A DNA stretch of 43,466 nt, taken from a virus. The stretch is from IMG/VR virus record IMGVR_UViG_3300036715_003744, positions 1 to 43,466 of that record; one strand, written 5' to 3'. The position numbers and the translations under genes were made by a program. Positions 1 to 43,466 of this stretch are shown here, piece by piece (the first letter of the stretch is position 1; the number at the start of each line of letters is the position of its first letter). The notes beneath the pieces are model-generated. The model was not told the DNA's origin. It saw nothing but the letters and a program-made list of their open reading frames with translations, and ran no database searches.

Positions 1-814
1 GCGTCCTTCAGTCGTCGGTCAGCGGCTTCCCGTTCAGGAAGTCGTTCGTTACCTGCTGCGACTCCTCGTCCGTCATGCTCGGCCGCGGGCGCAGGGCTGC
101 TCTCTCGGCTCGCTCCTTCTCCATGATCCGCCAGTTCTTGAGGGGCGGCCCCGAGAACTTCACGCTGGTCACCTTCGACCCGGGCGGCAGCATCGACAGA
201 AACTCCTGCAGGTTGCGCGGCTTCTCGGCGGGCGCGTTCGTCGGCGAGGAGTTGCTTGGCGATTCGGAGGGATTCGGCGAAGTCGACTCCGCGCTTTCCT
301 GCCTTGGCGAGTCGCTCTTTGTCGAGGTTGAGCTGGGCTTCTGCGTCATCGATATTCTCCCCGATGCCGGCCCCAAAGGTGAGGCCGGGCACGGTCTCGC
401 GAAGAACGGTTCCGTCCTCCTGCGTGACCTGCACCTCGACTGTGCGCTCTTCAACGGATATGCGCAACTCACGTACGAATCTTTCCAGCGCCGCCTTGTC
501 GTTTCCGTCGAGGGTGTATTCGTCACCGCTGACGTGGGTCCCAATGAAGTCGTGGGCGTCCATCTCGGTCATCGCCCTCCCGAAGGCCTCGATGATCTGG
601 TCGCCACCCGCATCGGTAAGCAGCGTGTTGAACGCTTTCAGCAGGTTGAGGTCGAGGCTGACGTGGAACTTCTGGGGGTGCTTCTCAAGGTACCGGTCGC
701 GCCCGTCCTTGGTCCAGAGGCCGGTGGCCTTCTCGACGTACATCTCGTTGAAGGCCTCGCTGGGCAGCCGCTTCGCCAGCGCCTCCTTCAGGTGCTCGGC
801 GATGGGGGTGTCGG
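1..814. repeat. Left copy of the 814-base terminal overlap (allele A)
   Basis: Every position x aligns with 42652+x without net insertion or deletion. About the first 97 and the last 215 bases are almost identical to the right copy, while the middle (about 98-600) differs at many positions. Both copies stop exactly at the window edges, which is expected if an assembler closed a circle through a locus with two alleles, and not expected for a genuine tandem duplication. Confidence 0.85.
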
Positions 815-3800
815 TGACCGGCTTGGCGTCGAGCTTCAGCGGGCCGCTGGGGGCCTTCAGGGGCTGCGCACCACGCTCCGCGCGCTGGGCTGGCGTCGCC
901 TTCTCGGCCGTGCTCTTCGCCTCATTCACCATCGCGGCCGAGGCGCGCAGCATGGTGGGGTTGTCCTTCGTGACGTGCTTGGGCTCGGCAACCGCGCCCG
1001 ACAGCTGAAAGCCCTGCAGCACCGGGTTTGCGTTGGCCTTGGCCAGGGCGGCGTCGAGCTGCTCCTGGGTGACGTTGGCGATGGCGAAGTCGCCCTTTAC
1101 CTTCGAGAGGGTGCCGTTCTGGAGCTCGGGTGCCGCGGCGAGGGCCTGCGCAGCCGCGGCGTAGACCGCGTCGCCCGACTTGTGGCCGCCCTGCTTGTCG
1201 TTGGCGTACTTCACGCCCTCGATGCTGATGGTGCCCACGGTCTTCGCGGTGGGCTCGATGCGGGCCCAGGCGCGGTCATTCAGCAGGCCCGACGTGGAGT
1301 CGTGGAAGAAGTCGCGCTCGAGCGCCGCCTTGCCCTCGGGGGTGGTGACGTCCTGCTCGTTGAGGCGCCTGGCCAACTCGGCGAAGACGGGTGACGTCTC
1401 GGCGTCGATGGTGCGCCCCTGCTTCGTGCCGGCGAGGGCCTCGTCGCCGCGGGCGACCACGATGGGTTGATCGGGGAAGAGCTCGGCCGCGGTCTTCTGG
1501 AAGTCCTGCACCGCGGTGCCGGTGAGGTGGCGCACCACCAGGGCGACGGTGCGCGCCTCGTCCTTCGACGCGCCCGAGTCGCGAAGCTGCTGCTCGAGCG
1601 CCTCGGTATGCCGGTTGAGCGTCTCGGCGTCGGCCTGGCTGCGCAGGGCCTCGTCGGCGATCCGCTGTGCCTGGTGCTCGATGGCCGCCGCCTGCTCGCC
1701 CTTGAGCTGGTTGGGCGTCAGCAGCTCGGGGTGCGTCGACGTGTCGCCGGCGAGCGCCTTCGCCGCTTCGCTGGTGCCGTAGGCGCGGTTGACCTGCTCG
1801 AGCGGGACCTCGACCCGGCCGCCCGAGGCAACGGCCTCAGCCAACTTGGCGGGCCCGTCCTCGCCCAGCAGCTTGGTGACCTCGGTGTCGAGCGCCTCGC
1901 CCTCGAGGCCCTTCTCCTGGAAGTACTTCGCCACGGCCGGGCCGTCGATGTGCAGCGCGGTGACGGGCGGCCCGCTTTTGCCGGTGACGCCCTCCATCAC
2001 CGTCGCCATGCCCTTCGGGTCGGCCTTGGCCGCCTCATGCTCGGAGGCCTTGAGGATCTGCTTCACCACGTCGCCGTTGCGCTGCTCGCGGCTGCGCACC
2101 AGCGCGGGCCCGGCGAGCGACAGCACGGAGCCGACGCCGCCCACAGCCAGGCCACCGAGCGCGCCCACCACGCCCGAGCGCCCCATCTCCTCGGGGTTCA
2201 GAATCGGGTGCTCGGGCAACTTGATGGTGGCCTTGGTCGCGTCGACCGCGGCTTGGGCGAGCGAGGTCTCGCCGGCGGCGACCTTCTCGGCTTCCTTGCG
2301 CAGCGCGCCCTTGTCGCCGCCCGCGACGCCCTCGGTGATGGCCGGGACAATCTCGTCGACCATTTCCTGCATGGTCTCCTCGAGGCCGTTCTCGGCGCCC
2401 GACTCGACCCACTGCTTGCCCGCCTTGGCCGCGGCGACGCGGAAGCGCGGGTTCGCCAGCATCAGCCGCTTGATTTCGCTAGCCCCGTCGGCGAGCAACG
2501 CTTCGCGCATGGGCCCGAGCGTCTTCAGCATGGCCCGCATCTCGAGCACCTCGAGGCCGGCCTTCAGGGCGCCCGCGATGATGGCGCCGCCGGCGGCTTC
2601 CTGCACGGTGAGCGAGCGCCCGTCCTCGAGCTTCAGGTCGCGGAGCTGCTCGTACGTGCTGCCCGTCTCAGTGCGGAAGCTGTACTCGAAGGTGCCCCAC
2701 GTGGCGCCTGTCTTGGCACCGAGCCGCATGCCCGCCGTTGCGCCCTTCATGGCGCCCTGGGGTGAACGGGTGGCGACGCCGCCCACGATGCCGCCGGCGA
2801 TGCCGAGCGCGGTGGACCCGGCGCTGGCGTCCTGCAGCACCGTCGGCAGCATCTCGACCATGCTGGTGACGGCCTGCGCTGCGTCGGCGGCGACGCGCCC
2901 GAGCTGACCCTCACCCAGGGCCCGCGGCCGCGCATCGAGCTTCAGGTCGTGGATCTGCGAGCGAAGCGCCAGCGTCTCGTCAGGCGTGGCGCCGCGCAGT
3001 TCGAGCAGCATCAGGTCGTGCATCAGCGCACTCGCCTGCTGGCCGGCCCGTTGCTCGTTGGTGCGCTCGCCCAGTTTCGTGCTGTCGATGGGGTGCAGCG
3101 GGTCGAAGGGCCCGGTGGCCTTGGCCGCGCGCTCGTCGACCAGCTCTTCGGTGTGCTTGGCCGCCTCCTCGCGCTTGTCCTTCTCCTCGAGGATGGTGCG
3201 GGCGGTCGCGAGGTCGGCCCCGTGGTCCTTCAGGAAGGCGGCGCGCTCGGCAGGGTCGGCCGCCATCGTGCCGGTCTCCCAGTCCTTGCGCACGAGCTCA
3301 CGCGCGACGCCCTCACGCACGTCGCGAATGGGCGAGTCGAGGCGCAGGCCGCCCTTGTACCCGGGCACCGTGGCGCGCAGCAGCGGGCCCAGGGCGAGGT
3401 CTTGGGCCACCCGCGCGGTCTCGATGGGGTGCGCGATGACGTTGCCCACCGCGTCACCGAGGGCCCTCAGGCTCTCGCTCAGGAAGCCGTGCTCGACGTC
3501 GGCAAGAATGACGGGCGCGATGGCGGGGTTGTCAACCGCCCATGCCTGCACCTCGGGCAGGGTCTGTTTGCGCCAGGTGTCGACGTCGAAGTTCGCCAGC
3601 GCCGCGGTGCGACGGAACTCGGGCAGATGCTGGCGCACCATGTCGACCTTCAGCCCCCAGCGGTCGGCGATGGCCAGCGCGGCCGCATCGTCTCCCATGC
3701 CAGCAGTCGGGTCGGGAATCTTCTGCAGCTGCCCGAAGGCGAACCTCAGCCGCTCGTCTTCGGCTTCCTTCTTGGCCAGGTATTCGGGCGAGTAGACGAG

Positions 3801-4073
3801 CGAGTCTTTCTTTTCTTCCTTCTGCTCGCCCTGGACCTGCCACGTCAGCATGCCCGTGGGACTGATGAAGTCGGCGGTGAGCGGCACCTCCTTGGGCATG
3901 AAGCCGTGCGACGACGTATCGGGCATCTGCGTCGGCTCGCCGCCGGGCTCGGTCGCTTTCGCGGGAGCGGGGGTCTCGTCGGCCAGGAATGCGTCAGGGT
4001 CAAACTCGTCGACAGAGGGCTCAGCAGCAGGCTCAGCCAGGAAGGCATCAGGGTCGAACTCGGGGTCGCTCAC
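1..4073 (-). CDS. Giant polyvalent ejection protein, N-terminal part (runs off window; continues at 43466)
   Basis: Reading frame open from a GTG at 4073 (GTGA overlap with the stop of the preceding gene) to base 1, about 1,357 codons, with no stop. The N-terminus is acidic and repeats DEFDPDAFLA-like units. Gly/Ala-rich hydrophobic stretches lie at about residues 390-440 and 625-657. Two tandem GGDEF-like regions follow: about 905-1015 (TSGLLNDRAW, GHKSGD, with KGDFA in place of GGDEF) and about 1125-1245 (SGDEY). The same sequence recurs at the right end of the window, so the true product is probably one 2,809-residue protein finishing at 38296. Position after the gp13/14/15-like internal virion genes fits a DNA-ejection protein. 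The domain assignment is by eye; enzymatic activity is unknown. Confidence 0.85.
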   Translation of the reverse strand, partial: MSDPEFDPDAFLAEPAAEPSVDEFDPDAFLADETPAPAKATEPGGEPTQMPDTSSHGFMPKEVPLTADFISPTGMLTWQVQGEQKEEKKDSLVYSPEYLAKKEAEDERLRFAFGQLQKIPDPTAGMGDDAAALAIADRWGLKVDMVRQHLPEFRRTAALANFDVDTWRKQTLPEVQAWAVDNPAIAPVILADVEHGFLSESLRALGDAVGNVIAHPIETARVAQDLALGPLLRATVPGYKGGLRLDSPIRDVREGVARELVRKDWETGTMAADPAERAAFLKDHGADLATARTILEEKDKREEAAKHTEELVDERAAKATGPFDPLHPIDSTKLGERTNEQRAGQQASALMHDLMLLELRGATPDETLALRSQIHDLKLDARPRALGEGQLGRVAADAAQAVTSMVEMLPTVLQDASAGSTALGIAGGIVGGVATRSPQGAMKGATAGMRLGAKTGATWGTFEYSFRTETGSTYEQLRDLKLEDGRSLTVQEAAGGAIIAGALKAGLEVLEMRAMLKTLGPMREALLADGASEIKRLMLANPRFRVAAAKAGKQWVESGAENGLEETMQEMVDEIVPAITEGVAGGDKGALRKEAEKVAAGETSLAQAAVDATKATIKLPEHPILNPEEMGRSGVVGALGGLAVGGVGSVLSLAGPALVRSREQRNGDVVKQILKASEHEAAKADPKGMATVMEGVTGKSGPPVTALHIDGPAVAKYFQEKGLEGEALDTEVTKLLGEDGPAKLAEAVASGGRVEVPLEQVNRAYGTSEAAKALAGDTSTHPELLTPNQLKGEQAAAIEHQAQRIADEALRSQADAETLNRHTEALEQQLRDSGASKDEARTVALVVRHLTGTAVQDFQKTAAELFPDQPIVVARGDEALAGTKQGRTIDAETSPVFAELARRLNEQDVTTPEGKAALERDFFHDSTSGLLNDRAWARIEPTAKTVGTISIEGVKYANDKQGGHKSGDAVYAAAAQALAAAPELQNGTLSKVKGDFAIANVTQEQLDAALAKANANPVLQGFQLSGAVAEPKHVTKDNPTMLRASAAMVNEAKSTAEKATPAQRAERGAQPLKAPSGPLKLDAKPVTDTPIAEHLKEALAKRLPSEAFNEMYVEKATGLWTKDGRDRYLEKHPQKFHVSLDLNLLKAFNTLLTDAGGDQIIEAFGRAMTEMDAHDFIGTHVSGDEYTLDGNDKAALERFVRELRISVEERTVEVQVTQEDGTVLRETVPGLTFGAGIGENIDDAEAQLNLDKERLAKAGKRGVDFAESLRIAKQLLADERARREAAQPAGVSVDAAARVEGDQREVLGAAPQELADHGEGASRESSPAPAAEHDGRGVAAGNERLPEREAADRRLKD
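8..349 (-). CDS. Embedded overlapping ORF, allele A (113 aa, +1 frame inside giant gene)
   Basis: A 113-codon frame lies wholly inside the giant gene, shifted +1. It begins at ATG 349 with a GGGGAG Shine-Dalgarno 7 bases upstream, both conserved in the other allele at 43001. The first third is Ser/Thr/Pro-rich. The rest looks like an ordinary folded protein (KPRNLQEFL, LPPGSKVTS, GPPLKNWR) and ends in LTDD. In my hand alignment of 46 codons in the second half, this frame keeps about 28 residues with about 9 synonymous changes, while the host frame keeps about 20 with about 1. That is what selection on this frame would give. No homologue is recognised. A +1 frameshift from the giant frame is an alternative, but no slippery site is seen. 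Confidence 0.6.
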   Translation of the reverse strand: MTQKPSSTSTKSDSPRQESAESTSPNPSESPSNSSPTNAPAEKPRNLQEFLSMLPPGSKVTSVKFSGPPLKNWRIMEKERAERAALRPRPSMTDEESQQVTNDFLNGKPLTDD

Positions 4074-5974
4074 GGGCCCAGCTTTCTGCGCACGGCAGCC
4101 GCGCGCGCGTCATTCGGGTTCTTCTCCAGCCATCTCATGCCGGCAGCGCGCGTCGCGTCAGCCGCCTTCGGTGTGGCGTGGGGCTTCGGAGGCGCGGCCG
4201 GGGCCAAGGTGGGGCCGGTAGGCGCGGCGGTGGGCGACAGGGCCTTGGTGCGCTCGAGCACCACCTTCTCTTCGGGCGTGAGAGGCACGGTGCCGGCGGG
4301 GCCCTTCGTGTCAAACCAGAAGGTGCGGGGATTGAGAATGGCTTCGCGCTGGAGGTCGGCCGCCATCTTCTCGCGCGTGGCCGTGTCGGGCGGCTTGTTG
4401 CCGTGCGCGTCGAGGTACTGCTGGTACTGCACGGCCGCTCGAGCACGCCAGGTGTCGGCCTGGTCCTGGTTCTTGGGCGGGACCGTCTTCGACTTCTTGT
4501 CGCCGAGGGCTTTCGAAATGTCCTTCTCGACGTCTTCGACGTACGAGTTGTAGTTCGTCGAGAGTCCCTTCTTCACCATGTCGGCGGCGATGCGCTGCTG
4601 CTTGGCCACCTCCATGCGCCCCTGATCGTCGACGGCCTTGCCCGCCACCCAGTGGTCGACGGTGGCCTTGACCTGCTCCTCGAGGGGGAGTGCCTGGAAC
4701 GTGGTGAGGGCCAGCCGATTGGCCGCTGCCTGTTCGCGCCGGGCGTCGGCCGCCTCTCGTCGGTCATCGGCGTTCAGCTTGCGCCAGCGGTCGTTCTCGA
4801 TGCGCTGATCGCGCTGCATCTGCAGGAGGAACTCGTTGTCGTTCTGGTGCAGCCAGGCGTAGGCCTTCGCCGGAATCTGCTGCTTGTCGACCTCAGCCCC
4901 GCGGGCGGCGTTGCGGTAGTTGTCGCGCACCGACACGAAGGCTTCGTGCTCGACGTGCAACTGCTTCTCGAGCAGGTCGCGCACCTCGCTGCGCCGGGCC
5001 TCGGGAATGGCGTTGAGCTTCTCGCGTGCTGCGTCGCCGTCGACATAGCCGGTTTCCTTGTTCTTCGAGGTGGCCACTATTTCGGCCACGGTCTTCTCGT
5101 CTTCGGCGCTCTTCAGCTGCTTGTGCTGGGCGAGCTCAGCGCGGGTGATGGCGGCGTGCACCTCGTCGGTGCCGGTGCCGATCCACTTCCTGTCGATCTC
5201 GAGACGCAGCTTCGCGTACTCGATGTCGTCGTGCTCGATGGCCGAGTAGATGGCTGCTTTGGCCGCGTCGGCCCGCACCTTCGCCTCGGCCGCGTCCGCC
5301 TGCTCCGGTGAGGTCGCGAGCTCGCGGGCCGACTTCACGGCGAGGCCCACCTTCACCCAGTTGAGTGGGTCGGCGTAGTCGTTGGCGACGCTGCGCACCG
5401 TCTCGCTCGAGAGCGCGGTGGACGCGGCCGTCTTCGCCTGCTCGAACTGGGTCGCCGCATGCTGCTCGACCTGCCGCCGGGCCGACTCGAGCGCCACCTG
5501 GCTGCGCATGTGGAACTCGGCGCGGGCCGCTTCCGGGAGCGTCTCGGCGATGGTGTCGCGGTCCTTGATGAGGCTGTCTAGTACCTCGGCGGACTTGGCG
5601 TGGGCGTCCTGGCCCTTCGTCGAGAGGTAGCCCGAGGTGTCGTATTTGCCGCCGTTGAAGGAGGCGTCGATCTGCTGCTGGGGCGACGCGTCGAAGGCGG
5701 CGTTGATTTGCCCCTGCGACGTGGAGTCGCCCTGCAGCCGCGAGGTGGTCGACTTCTCGAGGTTGGCCAGCCCCTCGGCCACCTTCATCTGGTTGGCCTT
5801 CTCGACGGCCTTGCGGTTGACGTCTTCGGCCGTATTGAGGGCGTTGTCGGCTGCGCCGCCCAGCTGCCCGAGGGCTTGGCCCACCTGGTCGTTGGCTTCG
5901 ACTCGCATCGGGCCCGGGCCCTGGTAGAGCGCCCCCTTCACCTGCACGTCTTGCTCGAGTTCCGGGACCTTCAT
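4070..5974 (-). CDS. Large internal virion protein (gp15-like), helical
   Basis: 634 residues from ATG 5974, which has a GGAGGA 5 bases upstream and overlaps the TGA of the gene before (TGATG). A GTG three bases earlier is possible but too close to the SD. The protein is highly charged and Ala/Gln/Glu-rich with long predicted helices throughout and a Pro/Ala-rich stretch near residues 570-600. There is no signal peptide or membrane span. No catalytic motif was recognised. Its place between the gp14-like gene and the giant ejection gene matches T7-type internal core proteins ejected with DNA. The assignment is by context and composition rather than by a specific motif. Confidence 0.6.
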   Translation of the reverse strand: MKVPELEQDVQVKGALYQGPGPMRVEANDQVGQALGQLGGAADNALNTAEDVNRKAVEKANQMKVAEGLANLEKSTTSRLQGDSTSQGQINAAFDASPQQQIDASFNGGKYDTSGYLSTKGQDAHAKSAEVLDSLIKDRDTIAETLPEAARAEFHMRSQVALESARRQVEQHAATQFEQAKTAASTALSSETVRSVANDYADPLNWVKVGLAVKSARELATSPEQADAAEAKVRADAAKAAIYSAIEHDDIEYAKLRLEIDRKWIGTGTDEVHAAITRAELAQHKQLKSAEDEKTVAEIVATSKNKETGYVDGDAAREKLNAIPEARRSEVRDLLEKQLHVEHEAFVSVRDNYRNAARGAEVDKQQIPAKAYAWLHQNDNEFLLQMQRDQRIENDRWRKLNADDRREAADARREQAAANRLALTTFQALPLEEQVKATVDHWVAGKAVDDQGRMEVAKQQRIAADMVKKGLSTNYNSYVEDVEKDISKALGDKKSKTVPPKNQDQADTWRARAAVQYQQYLDAHGNKPPDTATREKMAADLQREAILNPRTFWFDTKGPAGTVPLTPEEKVVLERTKALSPTAAPTGPTLAPAAPPKPHATPKAADATRAAGMRWLEKNPNDARAAAVRRKLGP

Positions 5975-6946: not shown

Positions 6947-9287
6947 GCGTCAGGCCGACGACGGTGACGGGCAGCGGGAGGGTCTGCCGCAGAATGGCCC
7001 GCGCATACCGGTCCCACGTGCCGTTGACGGGCACGACGATGAGCTGCGTCGAGTTCGCCGGGGGCAGGTAGCTGTCGGTCACCTGGCGCTGGCGCCACTC
7101 GGTGAGGTGGTCCTGGTCCTGCCCGGTGAAGAGCCCGCGCGCCTGGTCGACCTCCCAGCGCACCGAGACCACCTGCTTCTGGGCCTTGGCGACGTCGACG
7201 GCGTCGAGCGCGTCGAGCTCGCACTGGTAGAGCAGGCCCACGAACATGACGATGTCGGTGGTGGGCGCGTCGATGGCGTTGGCCACCGGCAGCTCGGGCA
7301 AGGTGATGGTGCCGCCCGAGACGATCATCGGGCCGTAGGGCGGGTTCCCGCGCGAGACCGCATACACGGGCAGCCCCTCGAGGTGGCCCAGGCCAGTGAG
7401 CGTCTGCGCGGGTGGCCCGCGGTACCGCAGACAGGCGTCGACCGCGGCGTCGTCCTCGGGCGAGTCGTTGCGCCGGCGGGAGTTCATGCACTCGACGTAG
7501 ACGCCACCCGGACGCTGCACGGCGAGGTACACCACGTCTTCGTCGACCTCAGGCACGCTGCAGACGCTGCGCACGGTGCCGGTGGTGGGGTGCTGCGCCC
7601 AGCCGTGCGAGCCCTGGCCGCGGTTGAAGGAGAGGCTCAGCAGGCGCCCGTCGGCGCGCACCGCCCACACCAGGCCCCACGGCTCGTCGGCGTAGCACCA
7701 GTCGATCAGGTTGCGCTTCGGGCTGGTCGCGTAGGGGGTCGCGTTGGCTGCGCTCTCGTTGCCGTGGAAGAGGTGCTGGGCCTGCGAGGTGAGGTCCACC
7801 CCGACGAGCCCCTGGGGAAAACTGGCGTTGGTGTCGGTGATGGCCGCGATGACGCTGCGCCCCTTCGACCCGACGTAGAGCACGCTGCCGCCGTCGACCA
7901 TCATCGGCGCCGGGACGCTGGCGTAGAACTGCGAGCCGCCCGGGAGCGTCAGCAGCACCTGGCCCCCGACGCCCTTCTCGATCTCCACCTGCGCCGAGAG
8001 GTTGGTGGGCGACATGGGTGCGCCCTGGGTCCCACCGATGAGCCAGCAGTTGGAGTCGGTCAGCGCCAGCAGGCGGTTCTTCGCTCCGATGAGGAAGCGA
8101 ATGGGGTCACGCTTGTTCGACGCGAGCTCGAAGGCGAGGGCCTGATCCTCGGTGGTGATGAGGTGCGAGTCGAAGTCGTTGTACGCACCGATGGACGACG
8201 CGAAGACCCACCCCGGCCGAAAGTAGCTGCCGGCGAAGATGCGGCGCTGCTGGAAGTAGGTCGAGGTGGCGAACGTGTCGACGAGCGTTGAGCCGTTCGG
8301 CTGCTTGCACTGGCGCGGGTCGGTGCCCTGGAGCGGCTGCAGCGCGTAGTTCGGCGCGTCGCCGATGTCCTTGAAGGTGAAGCTGTCGTCGCCGAGTCGC
8401 TGGTTGGTGGTCCCGACGAAACCGAAGAGCGTGCCGCGCCCGCGGTACACGTTGAAGCTCTGCACCACGCCGGTGGGCGTCGTGCCGATGGCGGGCCCTC
8501 TGTCCGACAGAATCAGCGTGCAGGGCCTGTCGTAGTAGCAGACGACCGGCTGCCCGTTGATGGGCAGAGCGCCGGACACCAGGGCGTAGCTGGCGACGTA
8601 CTTCGTGATGGGCACCGACAACGTCTCGACCAGACGGCCATCAGGCGTCTGGAGGTTGGCCGAAATGCGCCAGTCCCACTCGCGAGCCTGGTGCGTTGAG
8701 TCGGGGGTAAAGGGGTCGTTCGGCGCCGTGCCCCCAGGAGGAGGCGCCTGCAGTAAGTACCCGATGATCCCCATGTACCCGATGCCGGGCGCGTAGCTGA
8801 CGGCCTCGAGGGGCGCCCACGCGATGGCGTTGAACGACCAGCTGCCGTCGGCATTGTGGCGGAGCTCCTGCGGCGCCAGCTGCGGCGAGGTCAGCGTGAG
8901 CACGTCGCCCGACTGCACGTACTGCAGGCTCCAGATGTTGGCCTCAGTGTAGGGCGTCACCAGCTCGAGCGGCACGCCACCCGAGAGCACGGTGGCCCCC
9001 GCGGTGTGGAATCGCACGTAGTAGTGGCCGAACTCGAGCACGTACGACGTCGTCGAGTTGACGATGAAGGGGATGAGGCGCACGCCGGTGTTCGAGCCAC
9101 CGCTGTTCTTCGTCGCCCGAATGAAGCTGGTGCCGCCGCGCGAGACGGCCATGCCCTGCTTCGACGGGAAGAAGTTGAGCATGTAGCGCAGGCCGCGCGC
9201 GTAGGTCGGGAGGTCGTGGCGCCCCCACAGCTGCGGCGAGAGTTCGCCCCCATCGAAGGCGGCCTGTCGAATGAAGCGCGGGGCCAT
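6924..9287 (-). CDS. Tail tubular protein B-like nozzle protein
   Basis: 787 residues, starting at ATG 9287 after a GGGAG SD and three bases after the adaptor gene stop. The N-terminus carries the pattern AFDGGELSPQLWGRHDL followed by YARGLRYMLNFFPSKQG, characteristic of podoviral tail nozzle and stabilisation proteins. The rest is rich in beta-strand-like segments, consistent with a beta-propeller nozzle. Length is typical. It should sit below the portal-adaptor ring and form the distal tail tube. No receptor-binding region is evident, and fibre functions are encoded elsewhere (36385-37722). Confidence 0.8.
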   Translation of the reverse strand: MAPRFIRQAAFDGGELSPQLWGRHDLPTYARGLRYMLNFFPSKQGMAVSRGGTSFIRATKNSGGSNTGVRLIPFIVNSTTSYVLEFGHYYVRFHTAGATVLSGGVPLELVTPYTEANIWSLQYVQSGDVLTLTSPQLAPQELRHNADGSWSFNAIAWAPLEAVSYAPGIGYMGIIGYLLQAPPPGGTAPNDPFTPDSTHQAREWDWRISANLQTPDGRLVETLSVPITKYVASYALVSGALPINGQPVVCYYDRPCTLILSDRGPAIGTTPTGVVQSFNVYRGRGTLFGFVGTTNQRLGDDSFTFKDIGDAPNYALQPLQGTDPRQCKQPNGSTLVDTFATSTYFQQRRIFAGSYFRPGWVFASSIGAYNDFDSHLITTEDQALAFELASNKRDPIRFLIGAKNRLLALTDSNCWLIGGTQGAPMSPTNLSAQVEIEKGVGGQVLLTLPGGSQFYASVPAPMMVDGGSVLYVGSKGRSVIAAITDTNASFPQGLVGVDLTSQAQHLFHGNESAANATPYATSPKRNLIDWCYADEPWGLVWAVRADGRLLSLSFNRGQGSHGWAQHPTTGTVRSVCSVPEVDEDVVYLAVQRPGGVYVECMNSRRRNDSPEDDAAVDACLRYRGPPAQTLTGLGHLEGLPVYAVSRGNPPYGPMIVSGGTITLPELPVANAIDAPTTDIVMFVGLLYQCELDALDAVDVAKAQKQVVSVRWEVDQARGLFTGQDQDHLTEWRQRQVTDSYLPPANSTQLIVVPVNGTWDRYARAILRQTLPLPVTVVGLTREVDVGG

Positions 9288-9290
9288 GTG

Positions 9291-9914
9291 TCACTCCCTG
9301 ATGCGGACGGACTCGCCGTCGGACTCGTTGTCCTCCTGGCCGAACCTCGCGTCGTGGGCCATGGCCTGGTGCAGCGACTGGATCGCCATCTGCTGGGCGT
9401 TGGCGGCCAACTGAGGCTTCACAGGCAGCGACAGGCAGAGCTCGACAGCGAGTTGCCAGGCGACCGCCTGTGCGAAGGTGGCGGGCCAGAGCGCAGGCAC
9501 CGGAAGCTGCGCGACGTAGACGAGCTCGACCGTCACGCCCGTGCCGCCCCAGTCAGTCACCAGCACCTGGCTGGTGGCCTTGTCGTCGAGCTCGACCTCG
9601 AAGGGGATGCGGCCACCCGGGAGCGTCGGGTGCGTGCCCTGGTTCAGGTACAACGGGGTGAGACAGTCGGTGGGCAAGGCGTAGACATAGGTCCACCCGA
9701 GGCGCGTGAGCGACGTCGTGGACAGCACCTGCCGTCGGGTGGCGAAGCGCCAGGGGTATTGCTCGAGCAGCGAGTCGCGGGTCGCGGCGTAGACCGGGTT
9801 GACGGCCTGCGCCTGCGCAGTTGGCTCGGTCAGTGAGTCGATGGTCTCGCGCTGCCCGACGCGCAGCAGCGCGAGGTTCGCGACCTGCGCGTCGGTGAAG
9901 AGCGTGCGAGCCAT
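9291..9914 (-). CDS. Tail tubular protein A-like adaptor
   Basis: 207 residues, ATG 9914 after AAGGGG. The pattern of T7 gp11-like adaptors is visible: N-terminal ANLALLRVGQ, then a tract about AATRDSLLEQYPWRFATRR, and WTYVYALPTDCLTPLYL. The C-terminal helix region contains FAQAVAWQLAVELCLSLPV. The protein should form the ring joining the portal to the nozzle. It lies immediately upstream of the nozzle gene, the conserved order. The C-terminus is acidic (EDNESDGESV). Confidence 0.8.
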   Translation of the reverse strand: MARTLFTDAQVANLALLRVGQRETIDSLTEPTAQAQAVNPVYAATRDSLLEQYPWRFATRRQVLSTTSLTRLGWTYVYALPTDCLTPLYLNQGTHPTLPGGRIPFEVELDDKATSQVLVTDWGGTGVTVELVYVAQLPVPALWPATFAQAVAWQLAVELCLSLPVKPQLAANAQQMAIQSLHQAMAHDARFGQEDNESDGESVRIRE

Positions 9915-10285: not shown

Positions 10286-10311
10286 GTGCATTCCTCAGGG
10301 ACTGCGGTGAG

Positions 10312-10383
10312 TAGCGGGGGCAGGACTCGAACCTGCGATCTTCGCCTTATGAGGGCGCCGAGATGCCACTTCTCTACCCCGCC
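10312..10383 (-). tRNA. tRNA with CAU anticodon (Met or Ile2)
   Basis: A 72-base cloverleaf can be folded by eye. The acceptor has 7 pairs (one G-U) and the D stem GAGA/TCTC has a loop containing GG. The anticodon stem GCGCC/GGCGA (4 of 5 pairs) carries loop CTCATAA, and the T stem GCAGG/CCTGC has loop TTCGAGT. The discriminator is A and no CCA is encoded. The CAU anticodon could be elongator Met or lysidine-modified Ile2; the body cannot settle this by eye. It lies inside the late operon between cement and coiled-coil genes. Confidence 0.88.
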
Positions 10384-37817: not shown

Positions 37818-38309
37818 ATGACCGCGCCGGCATCGCCTCCCTTTGATCCAAACGACTGGGTTGACGAGCGGACCGTAGATGGCGGTGATTGGTTCGTGCC
37901 AGATGACGAAGACTGGGTGGTCGAGGACGCGGGGCCGCCCGAGATCCCCGAGGGCTTCGACCTGGTCAATGAGCCAACTCCGAGGGTGGCCCCTACTGTC
38001 GTGGCGACTCGGCCGGACGAAGACGACTTCTTGGCCCTCTTCGTCGGGGCAATCGGGCTTGCGGGCGCGGCTACCGCTTGGCGACGTCGCAAGCCGATCG
38101 GGGTGGCGCTGAGGTCTGCCTGGTGGCGGACGTTTCTCGTTCTTCTGCCGTTCTGGGCGACTTGGCGGTTTGAAGCGATTCGAGACGAAGGAGACTACCG
38201 AGGCGCCGACATTCTCGTCGCCTACGGCTGGCAGTGCCTCGTGCTTCCCCTGCTCTGCGCGTTCGCAGTCCGCTGGGTGGCCCGAGGCGACTTCTCTATT
38301 CGCCGCTGA
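37818..38309 (+). CDS. Isolated membrane protein (moron candidate)
   Basis: 163 residues, ATG 37818 with GGGG 9 bases upstream. An acidic N-terminal domain of about 80 residues (DDEDWVVEDAG) is followed by three hydrophobic spans (FLALFVGAIGLAGAA, FLVLLPFWATW, CLVLPLLCAFAV). It is the only plus-strand gene in the late half, between divergent tail fibre and convergent giant genes. It overlaps the giant gene stop by 14 bases. This placement suits a prophage-expressed superinfection-exclusion or conversion gene (inference). Confidence 0.7.
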   Translation: MTAPASPPFDPNDWVDERTVDGGDWFVPDDEDWVVEDAGPPEIPEGFDLVNEPTPRVAPTVVATRPDEDDFLALFVGAIGLAGAATAWRRRKPIGVALRSAWWRTFLVLLPFWATWRFEAIRDEGDYRGADILVAYGWQCLVLPLLCAFAVRWVARGDFSIRR

Positions 38310-41300
38310 TCACGTCCTGCACTGCACGCAGGGGCGTCTGTGCCTTCCGGTCGCTCTCGCCGTAGAGCAGGCCCGAGGCCGCATCGAAGGGCCCGCGCAC
38401 CTCGCGGTCGCCGGAGACGGTGTCGTAGATGTACTTCCCGGTGCGCATCGGCTGGCTGATCGGCAGGTTGAGAATGGGCCCGAGCGCACGGAGGGCGGCC
38501 TCGACCTTCTTGTCTGGGTCCTTGTCGCTGGCGGCGGTGACGACGGCATCACCGATTGAATTGACCAGGCCGAGGAGCCCGCTCGAGCTTCGCTGCGTCA
38601 TGGGCTTGCCGCGGATCATCGCGTCGAAGGTGTTGCCCAGGTCGCCAGCGAAGGGGATCATGCTCAGGCCGGTGGTGAGCATCGTGCGCTCCGCCCACTC
38701 GTCGTACGGCTCGCCATCGTCCGGCCCCTTGCCGCGCAGCAGCGAGCCGATCAGCCCGATGGCCGTCATGTACCCGAGCGTGCGACCCATCGCCTGGACC
38801 TTCGAGAGCGGCTTCTCTCCCTCGAGCGTGGTCTGCAGGTTGGTCAACACCGTGTTCGTGACGGTCGAAAAGAACCCGTAGAACTGCAGGCTCGTGCCAA
38901 TGAAGCCGCGGTCGCGCACGACGCCGGCGGCATTGACTGCGCTGTGCATCGGGAAGAGCCGGCGCACCGTCTTGTCGGCCGCGTCGATGGCGCCCGCTTC
39001 GGCCTCACCTTCGCCGAGCGCCTGCAGGTAGCGACCCATCCAAATGGGCGTGGCAGTCGCCTTGTAGGTGGCCTCGATGAGCACGAAGGCGTGCTGGCGA
39101 ATCCATCGCAGCGGCGCCGCATTGAGCGGGCCCGTCTTCGTGAGGTCGTCAATCCTCCTGGTGAGGTCGCGCTGAATGGTGTCGTTCGCCGCGCGCATCG
39201 TGGCCGACTTCGCCTCAACTGCTTCGATAGCCGCCCAGGGCTTGGCGCCCTTGAACATCTCGAGCATGCCGCGGCTGAGGTACGAGAGCTTGAGCTCGCG
39301 GTCGAACGCCGCCGAAAGGATGGCGCTGAAGTCCTCGAAGAAGTTGGGCACCGAGTAGGCGAGCGCCGACATGGTGGTGTTGGCCCGGACCTTCCGCGCC
39401 AGCTTGAGCCAGTCGCCGGCGGCCTGCGAGCCCTCAACACCCGTCGCCGTGCCCACGTCTTTCGCCCAGCTGAGGAACTGCGCGGCTCGCGCCTGGCCGA
39501 GCGAATTCTTGAGGGTGGCCTGCACCCGCGGGTCGAGGATCAACCCGCCCACCGACATGAGGGCTTCGCGGTACGCCAGGTCGTGCACGTGCTGCGCGAG
39601 GTGCGTGGTGACGGCGCTGGGCTCAAGCTGAATGGGCCCGACGAAGCCCTCGACCCGGGCCTTCGTGTAGCCGTGGCTCGTCGTCGGCCGCGAGTACGAG
39701 GGGTCCATCATCTGCGACACCTGCGTCGCCGCCTGGTTCTCGCCGGCGGCGCTGACCCGCTTGTCGTAGATGGCCGGGAAGTACCCGCCGCTGAGCGTGC
39801 CGTTGGCCAGAGCGGTGGCCTGCTTCCCTACCCCTTCCGGCTTGAGCCCGGTGGTGCGCTCCTCGAGGGCCTGTGTCTCAGGCCAGAGCTTCTCGAAGGC
39901 GTCGTGTACCGAGTTGACCCAGGCGATTTCCTCGGCCGTCAGCTGCTGCAGGGCCTTCTGTAGTTGGTCGACCGTGAGGTTGCGCCCCTTCGTGAGGCGA
40001 TCGATGGACGACTCGTTGCCGGCGTTGAGCGCCATCATGAGCAGTTCGAAGCGCCGGGTCGGCGCCTCCATGCGCTGCAAGCCGTCGTTCACCTGGTGGC
40101 CCGGGAAGTACTTCGCCCCGTCGAAGAGCTCGCTGGCGGTCGCCGGCATCTTCTCGAAGGCGTGCAGAATCGGCACGGCGATGGACTTGTGCAGGTCAGC
40201 CGCGCGCTGCCGGGCCGACTCGATGGGCTTGAAGACGGCGCGATACCAGGCTGACTTGCGGGGGTCGACACCTTGAAGCACGCCGCCGAGCCAGTCCGTC
40301 ATCTCCTCAATTTTCAGCAGCGGCGCAGTGATGCGGCCGGGGAGCGCGGCCATCCACTGCAACACCGGCTCGGCCGAGACGCTCGACGACAACGGGCCTT
40401 CCTGCTTCTTGTACTTCGTGGCGTCGGCGATGAGCTCGGCGACTGTGGCTTCCTTGTCGACCCGCTTCCCCTCGATGAGCACCGTGCTGCGCTGACGTGC
40501 GGCCGCGCGGAGCTGCTCGAGCGCGTCGCGCACCATGCGCAGCTGACCCACGTCGACCTTCCGGTAGCTGTCGGCCTGCAGCGCTTCGAGCAGGCCCGGG
40601 AGCCACTCGGGGTCGCCGATCACCACCGCGTCACCGTTCATCTGGGCGACGGCCTGGGTGATGGCGGTGGCGTCGAGCTTCGAGGAGGCGTCGACCTCGC
40701 GGAAGCCCAGCCGCTCGACGATGAAGTCGACCGCGTTGAGGTACGCCGGCGAGGCCTTACCCAAGCGCTCCCGGGCCGTGTCCTTGGCCAGCTGCTTCGC
40801 CAGCGCCACCGTGCGGTCGCGCTCGTCGATGGCCTTCAACGTCTCGCGGTACCGGAAGGCGTTGAGCAGCTCGGTGCGCGCGGCTGCAGCAGCCTTGGTC
40901 CACTGCCCCTTCGCCGCGGCGGTGGCCTTCTCGGAGGCGGCCTTGCGCTCGTCGCGCAGCACCGTACCGGGCACCAGCTTACCGACCAGGGCGCGTTCGA
41001 TCATCAGCGCGGCGGCGCGCTTGAGGACCTCCACCGGTACCGTGTTGAGCGACGGGTCGCGCTTCTTGAGCGCCCGCCACTCGTCGAGGATCCGCTTCTC
41101 GGTGTAGGGGTTGAGGCCGCTGGCGACCAGGTGCTGCAGCTCCTGCCGGCGCTGGAAGATGCCGGGGTGCTGGGCCTGCATCTCGGCTTGTGCCTGCTGC
41201 TCGACCCACGTCTCCTTCGACGGCAGCTCGGCCAAGGCGGTGAGGAACGAAGCCGCGTCAGGGAACCCCGCCAGCTGGGCCACGTCGCTGACGTTCTCGC

Positions 41301-43466
41301 CGCTGGCCGCGGTCTTCAGGCCGGCGACCCGGCGCTTCCCCAGCACCTCCTGCACCTGGGCGCGGTTGAGCACGAAGGGCTCGGTCTTCAGCCCGGGCAG
41401 GTTGCCCTCGAGCAGTGCCTGGGCACGACGGCCCGGGAGCGCCTCGTACTCCTCACCGAAGGCAGCCCGGAGCTTCTTGAGCCCCGCCTTCCACCACGCC
41501 TCATGCACGCGCAGGGCGTCCTTGATGGCCGCCAGCTCGAGCGGTCGCGAGGCCTCGGTCACCGCATCGCGCTGGGCCTGCAGCTGCTCGGCGAAGGCCT
41601 GCTCGCTGACACCGGCCTCCTTCGCGGTGCTGAAAAGGCTGGGCCCCTGCTTCTTGCGCGCGGCCTCGAGCTCGTTCTCGCTGGCCAGCATGGCGTCGAA
41701 CACCCGCCGGAGGTCGTCGTTGAGCTTCTGCCCGGGCACGCCGGCGACGGTGCGGTAGATGCCCAGCAGCCACTGCTTCAGCCGCGTGAAGGCGCGCACC
41801 AGGTCGGCCTTGGGCGCCTTGCCCTCGAGCAGGTAGGCCTCGAAGCTGCGCGCGAAGGCCTCGTGGTGCTCGCGCTTGATGCCCTCTCGCGACTCGGCGC
41901 CGAGAGCCTTGAGGGTCGCGGCGTAGGTCTCCTTCACTCGCGCCGGGGCGTCGGGGCGCTCGGCCAGGCGGCCGTACAGCTCGAGCCAGGCGTGGGAGAT
42001 TTCATGCACCGCGGTCGACACGTCGGCCGACCTGTTCAGGAAGACCCGGACCACTTTCGCGGCCGCGTTGGCCTCGGGGATCTCCGTGTAGCCCTTGGGG
42101 ACGTTCTCCCCGTCCTGGTTGAGACGGTTCTTCTTGCCCAGAACGTTCGTGGCGAAGGCGTTGGCGCGGTCCTCCTTCACCGCCTTGTCGTACGACGACA
42201 GCGCGGCCTTGCCCTTTGCGCGCCGCATCTGCGCGTCGGGGCTGCCGTCATGTCCGTCCTCGCGCAGCTGCGTCAGCCCCGACTGGGGGTCGACCAGGTT
42301 GTGCTTATGGCCCCACTTCTGCGTCTGGTCCCACAGCGCCTGGTCGATAGTGAGCGCGCCCTCCCGCGCGCCCACCATGCCCTCGACGGCAATGCCGGGC
42401 CCGTCGTTGGTCACCCAGAGAAGGAATGCGCGCGCGGCCTTGCGCCGGAGCTCGAGCCGCTCCTTCGCTTCGACCAGGCGCTTGCCGACCGACAGCGCGG
42501 TCTCGCTGGCCTTGCGGTGGACCTTCTCTGCCTTGAAGCGGGAGACCGAGGCCGCGGCCTGCTCGAGGTCCCGCGGCCGATTGAAGCCTTGCTCGATTGC
42601 GTCACGCTCCTCGGCTCGGAGCGGGCCCTTCGACTCGCGCTCGGTGATGAGCGCGTCCTTCAGTCGTCGGTCAGCGGCTTCCCGTTCAGGAAGTCGTTCG
42701 TTACCTGCTGCGACTCCTCGTCCGTCATGCTCGGCCGCGGGCGCAGGGCTTCCTTCGCCTTGCGCTTCGCTTCCGACACTCGCCAGTTCTCGATCGGCGG
42801 CCCGATCATTTCGATGCTGGTCACCTTCGACCCCGGCGGCAGGCTTGCCAGGAACTCGTTCAGGTTCCGAGGTTTGTCGGCGGGCTCGCTCGTCGGCGAG
42901 GAGTTGCTTGGCGATCCGGAGGGACTCGGTGAAGTCGCGACCGCGCTTTCCTGCTGCGGCGAGTCGCTCTTTGTCGATGTTGAGCTGGGCTTCTGCGGCA
43001 TCGATATTCTCCCCGATGCCGGCCCCGAAGGTGAGGCCGGGCAGAGTCTCGCGAAGGACGTTGCCGTCTTCCTGCGTGACCCGCACCTCGAATCTGCGCG
43101 CGTCGACCTGGTAGCGCAAGTCGGCAATGAACCTTTTCAGCGCATCCTGATCGTTTCCATCGAGGGTGTACTCGTCACCACTGACATGGGTCCCGACGAA
43201 CTCATGAGCGCCGGCCGCTGCCATCACCTTGCCGAACCGCTCGATCACCTGGTCGCCACCCGCATCGGTAAGCAGCGTGTTGAACGCTTTCAGCAGGTTG
43301 AGGTCGAGGCTGACGTGGAACTTCTGGGGGTGCTTCTCGAGGTACCGGTCGCGCCCGTCCTTGGTCCAGAGGCCGGTGGCCTTCTCGACGTACATCTCGT
43401 TGAAGGCCTCGCTGGGCAGCCGCTTCGCCAGCGCCTCCTTCAGGTGCTCGGCGATGGGGGTGTCGG
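38296..43466 (-). CDS. Giant polyvalent ejection protein, C-terminal part (enters from window end)
   Basis: Open frame from 43466 to a stop at 38296; an internal ATG lies at 43395. Counting from the composite start it supplies residues about 1087-2809. It contains the second GGDEF-like region (SGDEY, composite about 1182) and a low-complexity linker over the embedded ORF. A zinc metallopeptidase motif HEISH (about 1574) with downstream EAFARSFEAYL is followed by long helical regions. The C-terminal end (FIGTSLQFYGFFSTVTNT, then MIPFAGDLGNTFD) resembles PLxRFG/large polyvalent-protein tails. Such proteins are injected with DNA and can defend or process it (family knowledge). Confidence 0.85.
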   Translation of the reverse strand, partial: DTPIAEHLKEALAKRLPSEAFNEMYVEKATGLWTKDGRDRYLEKHPQKFHVSLDLNLLKAFNTLLTDAGGDQVIERFGKVMAAAGAHEFVGTHVSGDEYTLDGNDQDALKRFIADLRYQVDARRFEVRVTQEDGNVLRETLPGLTFGAGIGENIDAAEAQLNIDKERLAAAGKRGRDFTESLRIAKQLLADERARRQTSEPERVPGKPAAGVEGDQHRNDRAADRELASVGSEAQGEGSPAPAAEHDGRGVAAGNERLPEREAADRRLKDALITERESKGPLRAEERDAIEQGFNRPRDLEQAAASVSRFKAEKVHRKASETALSVGKRLVEAKERLELRRKAARAFLLWVTNDGPGIAVEGMVGAREGALTIDQALWDQTQKWGHKHNLVDPQSGLTQLREDGHDGSPDAQMRRAKGKAALSSYDKAVKEDRANAFATNVLGKKNRLNQDGENVPKGYTEIPEANAAAKVVRVFLNRSADVSTAVHEISHAWLELYGRLAERPDAPARVKETYAATLKALGAESREGIKREHHEAFARSFEAYLLEGKAPKADLVRAFTRLKQWLLGIYRTVAGVPGQKLNDDLRRVFDAMLASENELEAARKKQGPSLFSTAKEAGVSEQAFAEQLQAQRDAVTEASRPLELAAIKDALRVHEAWWKAGLKKLRAAFGEEYEALPGRRAQALLEGNLPGLKTEPFVLNRAQVQEVLGKRRVAGLKTAASGENVSDVAQLAGFPDAASFLTALAELPSKETWVEQQAQAEMQAQHPGIFQRRQELQHLVASGLNPYTEKRILDEWRALKKRDPSLNTVPVEVLKRAAALMIERALVGKLVPGTVLRDERKAASEKATAAAKGQWTKAAAAARTELLNAFRYRETLKAIDERDRTVALAKQLAKDTARERLGKASPAYLNAVDFIVERLGFREVDASSKLDATAITQAVAQMNGDAVVIGDPEWLPGLLEALQADSYRKVDVGQLRMVRDALEQLRAAARQRSTVLIEGKRVDKEATVAELIADATKYKKQEGPLSSSVSAEPVLQWMAALPGRITAPLLKIEEMTDWLGGVLQGVDPRKSAWYRAVFKPIESARQRAADLHKSIAVPILHAFEKMPATASELFDGAKYFPGHQVNDGLQRMEAPTRRFELLMMALNAGNESSIDRLTKGRNLTVDQLQKALQQLTAEEIAWVNSVHDAFEKLWPETQALEERTTGLKPEGVGKQATALANGTLSGGYFPAIYDKRVSAAGENQAATQVSQMMDPSYSRPTTSHGYTKARVEGFVGPIQLEPSAVTTHLAQHVHDLAYREALMSVGGLILDPRVQATLKNSLGQARAAQFLSWAKDVGTATGVEGSQAAGDWLKLARKVRANTTMSALAYSVPNFFEDFSAILSAAFDRELKLSYLSRGMLEMFKGAKPWAAIEAVEAKSATMRAANDTIQRDLTRRIDDLTKTGPLNAAPLRWIRQHAFVLIEATYKATATPIWMGRYLQALGEGEAEAGAIDAADKTVRRLFPMHSAVNAAGVVRDRGFIGTSLQFYGFFSTVTNTVLTNLQTTLEGEKPLSKVQAMGRTLGYMTAIGLIGSLLRGKGPDDGEPYDEWAERTMLTTGLSMIPFAGDLGNTFDAMIRGKPMTQRSSSGLLGLVNSIGDAVVTAASDKDPDKKVEAALRALGPILNLPISQPMRTGKYIYDTVSGDREVRGPFDAASGLLYGESDRKAQTPLRAVQDVISGE
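42653..43466. repeat. Right copy of the 814-base terminal overlap (allele B)
   Basis: Partner of 1-814 (offset 42652). The outer parts are nearly identical and about 500 central bases are diverged. The giant frame is open through both versions. Confidence 0.85.
42660..43001 (-). CDS. Embedded overlapping ORF, allele B (113 aa)
   Basis: Same embedded frame as 8-349 in the second allele: ATG 43001, GGGGAG 7 bases upstream, identical stop. Differences from allele A in the folded half are conservative (V to I, L to I, R to K, Q to N) or synonymous (AAG/AAA, CCG/CCT, TTT/TTC, CCC/CCG). The last 25 residues are identical. Evidence for translation is comparative only. Confidence 0.6.
   Translation of the reverse strand: MPQKPSSTSTKSDSPQQESAVATSPSPSGSPSNSSPTSEPADKPRNLNEFLASLPPGSKVTSIEMIGPPIENWRVSEAKRKAKEALRPRPSMTDEESQQVTNDFLNGKPLTDD

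Follow-up and report, generated by a model that had tools for sequence, protein, structure and literature searches.

Putative overprinted genes in the +1 frame of phage polyvalent giants, mostly behind interchangeable domains

The window analysed here is the whole of a 43,466-nucleotide virus record (IMG/VR IMGVR_UViG_3300036715_003744). It carries a temperate podovirus-like phage with genes for a portal, a major head protein, tail proteins, a terminase, a DnaB-like helicase and an integrase, and with a tRNA-Met (cat) gene between structural genes (10311–10383, minus strand). Its two ends are 87% identical (bases 1–814 versus 42653–43466, outer parts matching), and the simplest account, which is an inference, is that a circular assembly graph was walked twice through a two-strain bubble. 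A giant polyvalent-type gene on the minus strand is divided between the ends: the N-terminal part occupies 3–4073, with a GTG start at 4073, and runs off the contig start, while the C-terminal part continues from the other end at 38296–43464. Joined at the overlap, the gene has about 2,809 codons. The C-terminal ~1,270 residues match phrog_9880 and share 25–28% identity with the giants of Pseudomonas phages AF, HU1 and UFJF_PfDIW6, Cobetia phage Carin1 and Bordetella phage BPP-1. The matching genes have a structural lysozyme or comparable gene on one side and tail genes on the other, a position that fits, without proving, a role as an internal virion protein that is ejected. The gene that precedes the giant frequently has a shared motif like R..G..PT...I..AY at its end (L004, L015, L037, L047, L128 and others), which may be a signal for virion assembly or docking; it is missing from the corresponding gene of the window.

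The HExxH (zincin-like) motif of the window giant, HEISH in the translation, is encoded at 41992–42006 (minus strand). A GGDEF-like domain with the motif SGDEY lies at 288–725 (minus strand), and a profile built from the window, L093 and L189 sequences retrieves the corresponding domains of L195 and L013. The same profile finds a first, degenerate GGDEF-like copy (KGDFA; 1074–1313, minus strand) as a weak match (domain score 9.5), which is also visible by eye. Pfam gave no GGDEF match for the window protein itself; its positional relatives L189 and L013 score above the cut-off. With GGDEF-like domains in tandem, the virion protein may carry a cyclic-nucleotide enzyme or decoy, an activity that is inferred only. 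Polyvalent proteins are many-domain proteins of phages and conjugative elements, as described by Iyer et al. 2017 (PMC5512222). Judged by their predicted products, the host giants are polyvalent proteins in that sense: the window giant is very long and combines an HExxH motif with GGDEF-like domains, and its relatives carry swappable effector-type domains.

Inside the giant gene, at the end of the second GGDEF-like domain or just behind it, begins an open reading frame of 113 codons in the +1 frame (8–349, minus strand; ATG 349–347, TGA 10–8). The ATG falls in the last helix region of the domain. A second allele, also +1 to the giant frame, is present at the other contig end (42660–43001, minus strand), and the two 113-residue products are 77% identical; the copies probably represent two strains and not a duplication within one genome. 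As the preliminary description had noted, a Shine-Dalgarno-like GGGGAG precedes the nested ATG by exactly 7 nt in both alleles (357–362 and 43009–43014, minus strand). The presence of such a frame means little by itself, because GC-rich giants often contain +1 and +2 ORFs of 90 to 280 codons by chance alone.

Comparison of the two alleles gives evidence of selection. From the residues KPRNL to the last difference (window positions 223–98), 25/42 residues (60%) are identical in the +1 frame, with 9 synonymous codon changes, and 17/41 (41%) in the giant frame, with 1 synonymous change; the preliminary description had put these values at about 61% with about nine, and about 43% with about one. 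As a null we placed the same 40 substitutions at random on sites of the same base in 20,000 draws. In the +1 frame 17/42 residues are changed, against 24.1 in the absence of selection (P=0.0006 for a count of 17 or lower), and its BLOSUM sum of 146, against an expected 76, was never reached. In contrast, the giant frame shows no constraint in this stretch (24/41 changed, P=0.78). Substitutions at giant codon positions 1, 2 and 3 number 13/14/29 upstream of the nested ATG and 19/13/8 from KPRNL to the stop (chi-square P=0.005), and the excess thus shifts from giant position 3 to giant position 1, which is the third position of the +1 frame. The earlier proposal that constraint swaps between the frames is borne out, and the KPRNL-to-stop part of the nested gene (8–223, minus strand) is the part constrained in +1. 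Two reservations apply to the test: it rests on only 40 substitutions, and the KPRNL boundary was picked post hoc in the preliminary description. A second pair, L056 and L064, gave substitution phases of 11/7/13, which do not decide the matter.

We looked for the same arrangement in related giants. The closest found, L093 and L189, belong to prophages of two genomes that fall in a single genus group, one that includes Archangium, and are 35–39% identical to the window giant over the C-terminal part; because of this relationship the phage host is probably a myxobacterium. L195, from the same order as those genomes, is 28% identical, and L013, an IMG/VR phage, 29%. All four carry a GGDEF-type domain at the corresponding place, directly followed by a +1 ORF of 69 (L093), 89 (L189), 110 (L195) or 66 (L013) codons with a purine-rich Shine-Dalgarno sequence ahead of its ATG. 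In the alignment the ATGs coincide at the end of the domain, apart from a shift of one codon in L013. Loss of the start or the ribosome binding site, or stops inside the frame, would have told against the dual coding first suggested for the window; the opposite was found, and all of these features are kept in the four relatives. The nested ATGs of the five giants, the window included, span the giant codon pairs GAT-GAC, TAT-GGG, TAT-GGC, CAT-GAA and GAT-GCC, at which the NAT codon is mostly a rare one: its share of all codons for its amino acid in the respective giant is, in order, 0.10, 0.04, 0.04, 0.04 and 0.24 (product ~1.5e-6). Pairwise comparison of the nested proteins across giants gave no significant similarity (best E about 1.5), and homology is for this reason claimed by position only, not by sequence. 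A shared pattern can be aligned by eye: a short helix, then a turn rich in P and G, and at the C-terminus a helix rich in T and E. In L189 a second +1 ORF of 81 codons (3741–3986, plus strand), with a helical model, follows directly after the first in the same linker.

To survey the family, we scored internal +1 and +2 ORFs with a start codon in 178 giants by codon usage trained on each locus's own long ORFs; the score expresses whether the shifted frame rather than the giant frame looks coding, with a threshold of >10. Redundant loci had been removed by hand, and some kinship remains (for example L056 and L064). The giants' own C-terminal parts and synonymous resampling with the giant protein fixed served as controls; other long ORFs were unusable, as stop-to-stop ORFs overrun neighbouring genes. 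Twenty coding-like nested ORFs exceeded the threshold, all in +1 and all before the HExxH domain, that is, 20 in 128k codons before it versus 0 in 212k codons after it. Ten resampling replicates of every giant yielded 0.0 +1 matches per replicate. The +2 frame gave 4 matches versus about 5.7 expected from the null. The Shine-Dalgarno match at 18 nested starts is better than at 736 other +1 ATGs of the same giants (P=4e-5). Matches are weak in L112, L148 and L199. Nested ORFs are also present in low-GC giants (L078 49%, L184 49%, L072 53%).

Throughout a set of 20 nested ORFs in which both window alleles are counted, the giant frame remains open, where it encodes a Gly/Ala/Pro/Ser-rich linker. 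Resampling the codons while keeping the nested protein unchanged puts the combined probability of an open giant frame at ~1e-19, a figure that is biased since nested ORFs were sought in open giants. At least 400 open codons lie upstream of HExxH in 145/164 family members. Because the frame stays open, it appears that the giant is read through and that the overlap is true dual coding. In the split giants L108, L122, L135, L166 and L172, inspection by eye found no obvious stand-alone copy of the nested gene. In L122 and L166 the HExxH part is a separate gene that starts ~100–150 codons upstream of the motif; in most relatives it is fused. In the L186 giant a strong +1 coding signal covers the first 161 codons of the stop-to-stop ORF that starts at 5371; the tail of the preceding gene is its most likely source.

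Nested ORFs are associated with particular domains. Pfam placed GGDEF, Zeta_toxin, GP88 and ART-PolyVal above cut-off and DUF7178 below cut-off in the relatives. A nested ORF lies behind the domain in 5/5 GGDEF-type giants and behind GP88 in both GP88-type giants, L080 and L184, where the starts agree within two codons and that of L184 reads AGGAGG-6-ATG. L072 and L010 have one behind a DUF7178-like domain, again with starts within two codons, and the L010 start has a perfect Shine-Dalgarno sequence (AAGGAGG-6-ATG). L077 and L010 share a start at the identical codon pair behind a further domain. L082 also has DUF7178-like sequence upstream, and L148 holds a weaker nested candidate. A zeta-toxin domain is encoded in the L077 giant at about 8828–9787 (plus strand; Pfam E=2e-40; among solved chains, PezT and Zeta come nearest), and a nested +1 ORF with GGGGAG-7-ATG follows directly, from 9788 onwards. 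In L060 the nested ORF and an extra domain lie together inside an insertion of roughly 270 codons that is absent from the giants L038 (85% identical) and L045 (76%). The counts are small and were put together after the fact. Putative nested +1 genes occur in at least about 18 of the 178 giants, in linkers of the N-terminal half and usually directly behind an interchangeable polyvalent domain.

The products themselves are orphans. None of those scanned convincingly matches a known family in Pfam, PHROGs or NCBIfam; antitoxin and immunity families gave no convincing match, and no HNH match was obtained. The L060 product has one weak PHROGs match, to a repressor family (E=0.0012). A match of allele B to phrog_4832 was rejected as too weak (E=0.03) and was missed by allele A. 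No close relatives emerged when IMG/VR was searched for exact peptides of the nested protein, the GGDEF stretch or the giant, and neither the nested ORF nor the giant's N-terminal part had a match among the phage DNA and protein sequences searched. AlphaFold predicts that residues 1–40 of the window protein are disordered and that about 41–110 form three helices with pLDDT near 80 (pTM 0.26). We claim no fold and made no fold search because the models are weak (pTM 0.26 and 0.48). The word 'filler', used in the preliminary description for the N-terminal 40 residues, is not supported as worded: the stretch is predicted as disordered, but nothing can be said about its role, because the conserved giant frame fixes its sequence. 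A lysis gene was set aside, as no transmembrane stretch was seen by eye in the nested product, and so was a homing element, for which the ORF is too small and lacks HNH.

These observations have to be set against several explanations. Gly-rich linkers in GC-rich DNA could yield long protein-like +1 ORFs by chance, as the frequency of such ORFs in GC-rich giants invites one to suppose, but resampling that preserved the giant protein never reproduced a +1 match, low-GC giants carry nested ORFs too, the +1 protein is conserved between the alleles where the giant frame is not, and start and Shine-Dalgarno sequence are conserved in position. We consider a composition artefact very improbable in general and, as far as sequence can decide, refuted for the window. 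Harder still to credit is a compensated frameshift, in which the +1 stretch would be a former part of the giant protein, flanked by two indels and now read in the wrong frame. It also predicts a local switch of the conserved frame; yet tblastn finds no in-frame version of the +1 product in the other giants of the set, and the conserved start and stop and the independent recurrence of the arrangement are not what it predicts. A programmed +1 frameshift, with ribosomes slipping near the end of the effector domain to make a shortened giant with a +1-encoded tail, would look alike downstream, and the selected +1 stretch indeed starts within the linker, some 43 codons beyond the ATG. It leaves unexplained, however, why the ATG falls on mostly rare NAT codons in five giants and why Shine-Dalgarno matches are enriched. 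A +1 stop just before the start in L184, L080 and L072 means that entry must lie downstream, and no shared slippery site was noticed, without a systematic search. Such slippage is improbable, if not quite as far-fetched as the two preceding accounts. By comparison, a translated, dual-coded gene is very probably what the window ORF is, a judgement founded on sequence evidence without expression data: the dual coding suggested in the preliminary description is supported by selection between the alleles, by the relatives and by recurrence in the family.

What kind of gene it is remains less settled. The nested genes may be real and have nothing to do with the neighbouring domain, as small virion, morphogenesis or regulatory proteins housed in linkers that tolerate overprinting. 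In favour of this are the Gly/Ala/Pro/Ser-rich character of the giant frame there, the lack of a common recognisable sequence among the products, and the cases L062, L112 and L151, which adjoin domains without assignment; composition alone, moreover, explains the same-strand phase-1 bias of long overlaps according to PMC2542354. It fits less well that, in divergent giants, the start is met again at an identical or almost identical point after each of several unrelated domains, that one nested ORF arrived with a domain insertion (L060), and that many linker-bearing giants have no nested ORF. We hold this explanation to be a serious possibility that falls somewhat short of an even chance.

Our preferred reading, towards which we lean without strong conviction when it is taken as a whole, is an overprinted gene with its own start whose product is a partner of the preceding domain. 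The nested gene would be translated from its own Shine-Dalgarno sequence and ATG inside the giant mRNA, giving a protein of ~113 residues with about 40 disordered residues followed by a small helical part, while ribosomes would also read on through this DNA in the giant frame, where it encodes a flexible linker. The product may be a dedicated partner of the preceding domain, and an inhibitor or a chaperone is the most plausible kind. It would hold that domain silent, or able to fold, in the cell that produces the phage, up to the ejection of the giant into the next host. The producing cell alone would need the partner, which would stay behind at ejection. Dual coding, the separate start, recurrence and domain association have statistical support from sequence, whereas the partner role is inferred: it is suggested because the nested ORFs are tied to domains, and we regard it as tentative. 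GGDEF and GP88 are not classical toxins, which counts against it; the zeta-toxin case in L077 would be the most telling one for a test of the role. More doubtful is the generalisation that polyvalent giants are built of cassettes, in which each effector domain is followed, within the linker, by an out-of-frame gene for its cognate inhibitor or chaperone. If true, domain and silencer would move together with the giant frame unbroken, a new format for effector-immunity pairs. The link to exchangeable effector-type domains in any case leads to a testable prediction of how phages with virion-borne effectors protect the producing cell, and the recurrence amounts to a set of natural replicates in which the origin and persistence of overprinted genes can be followed.

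Classical overprinted genes of phages include phiX174 E within D and lambda Rz1 within Rz. The nested ORFs resemble these as same-strand genes within genes, with their own ribosome binding site and a shifted frame, but they are not lysis genes, as no transmembrane or lipoprotein signal was seen by eye, and they recur in linkers of one giant protein family. In the actinobacteriophage ShiLan, an insertion in a DNA methylase gene contains an out-of-frame HNH endonuclease gene (PMC11855218). There, too, the insertion keeps the host frame open and contains, in a different frame, an entire gene that has a start of its own; the ShiLan host frame is predicted to form a loop, and the giant frame here a linker. 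Unlike that single homing endonuclease, the present products are many, unrelated orphans of 45–113 residues without HNH, placed in linkers of a polyvalent giant and tied to domain boundaries. Rpn toxins have an intragenic antitoxin, RpnS, a small product that restrains the larger one (PMC10327210). This gene-within-gene restraint is a model for the role proposed here, except that RpnS is an in-frame C-terminal fragment, whereas our products come from the +1 frame and are unrelated in sequence.

The giants match the polyvalent proteins of Iyer et al. 2017 (PMC5512222) in their HExxH, ART, GGDEF and other swappable domains, with a zeta toxin in one relative; in that article, the word 'overlapping' is absent and the sole 'reading frame' passage concerns small neighbouring genes. 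The literature searched, which leaves out most subscription journals, held no report of nested genes in polyvalent giants, and in ctEw122 (L010), an annotated public record for one of the positive cases, no gene is annotated inside the giant. Because gene callers mask everything inside a long ORF, conserved phage proteins would go unseen in giants, and the giant genes of related viruses probably encode more proteins than annotated. Out-of-frame genes inside phage genes are already known; to these, nested genes in polyvalent giants are a new addition.
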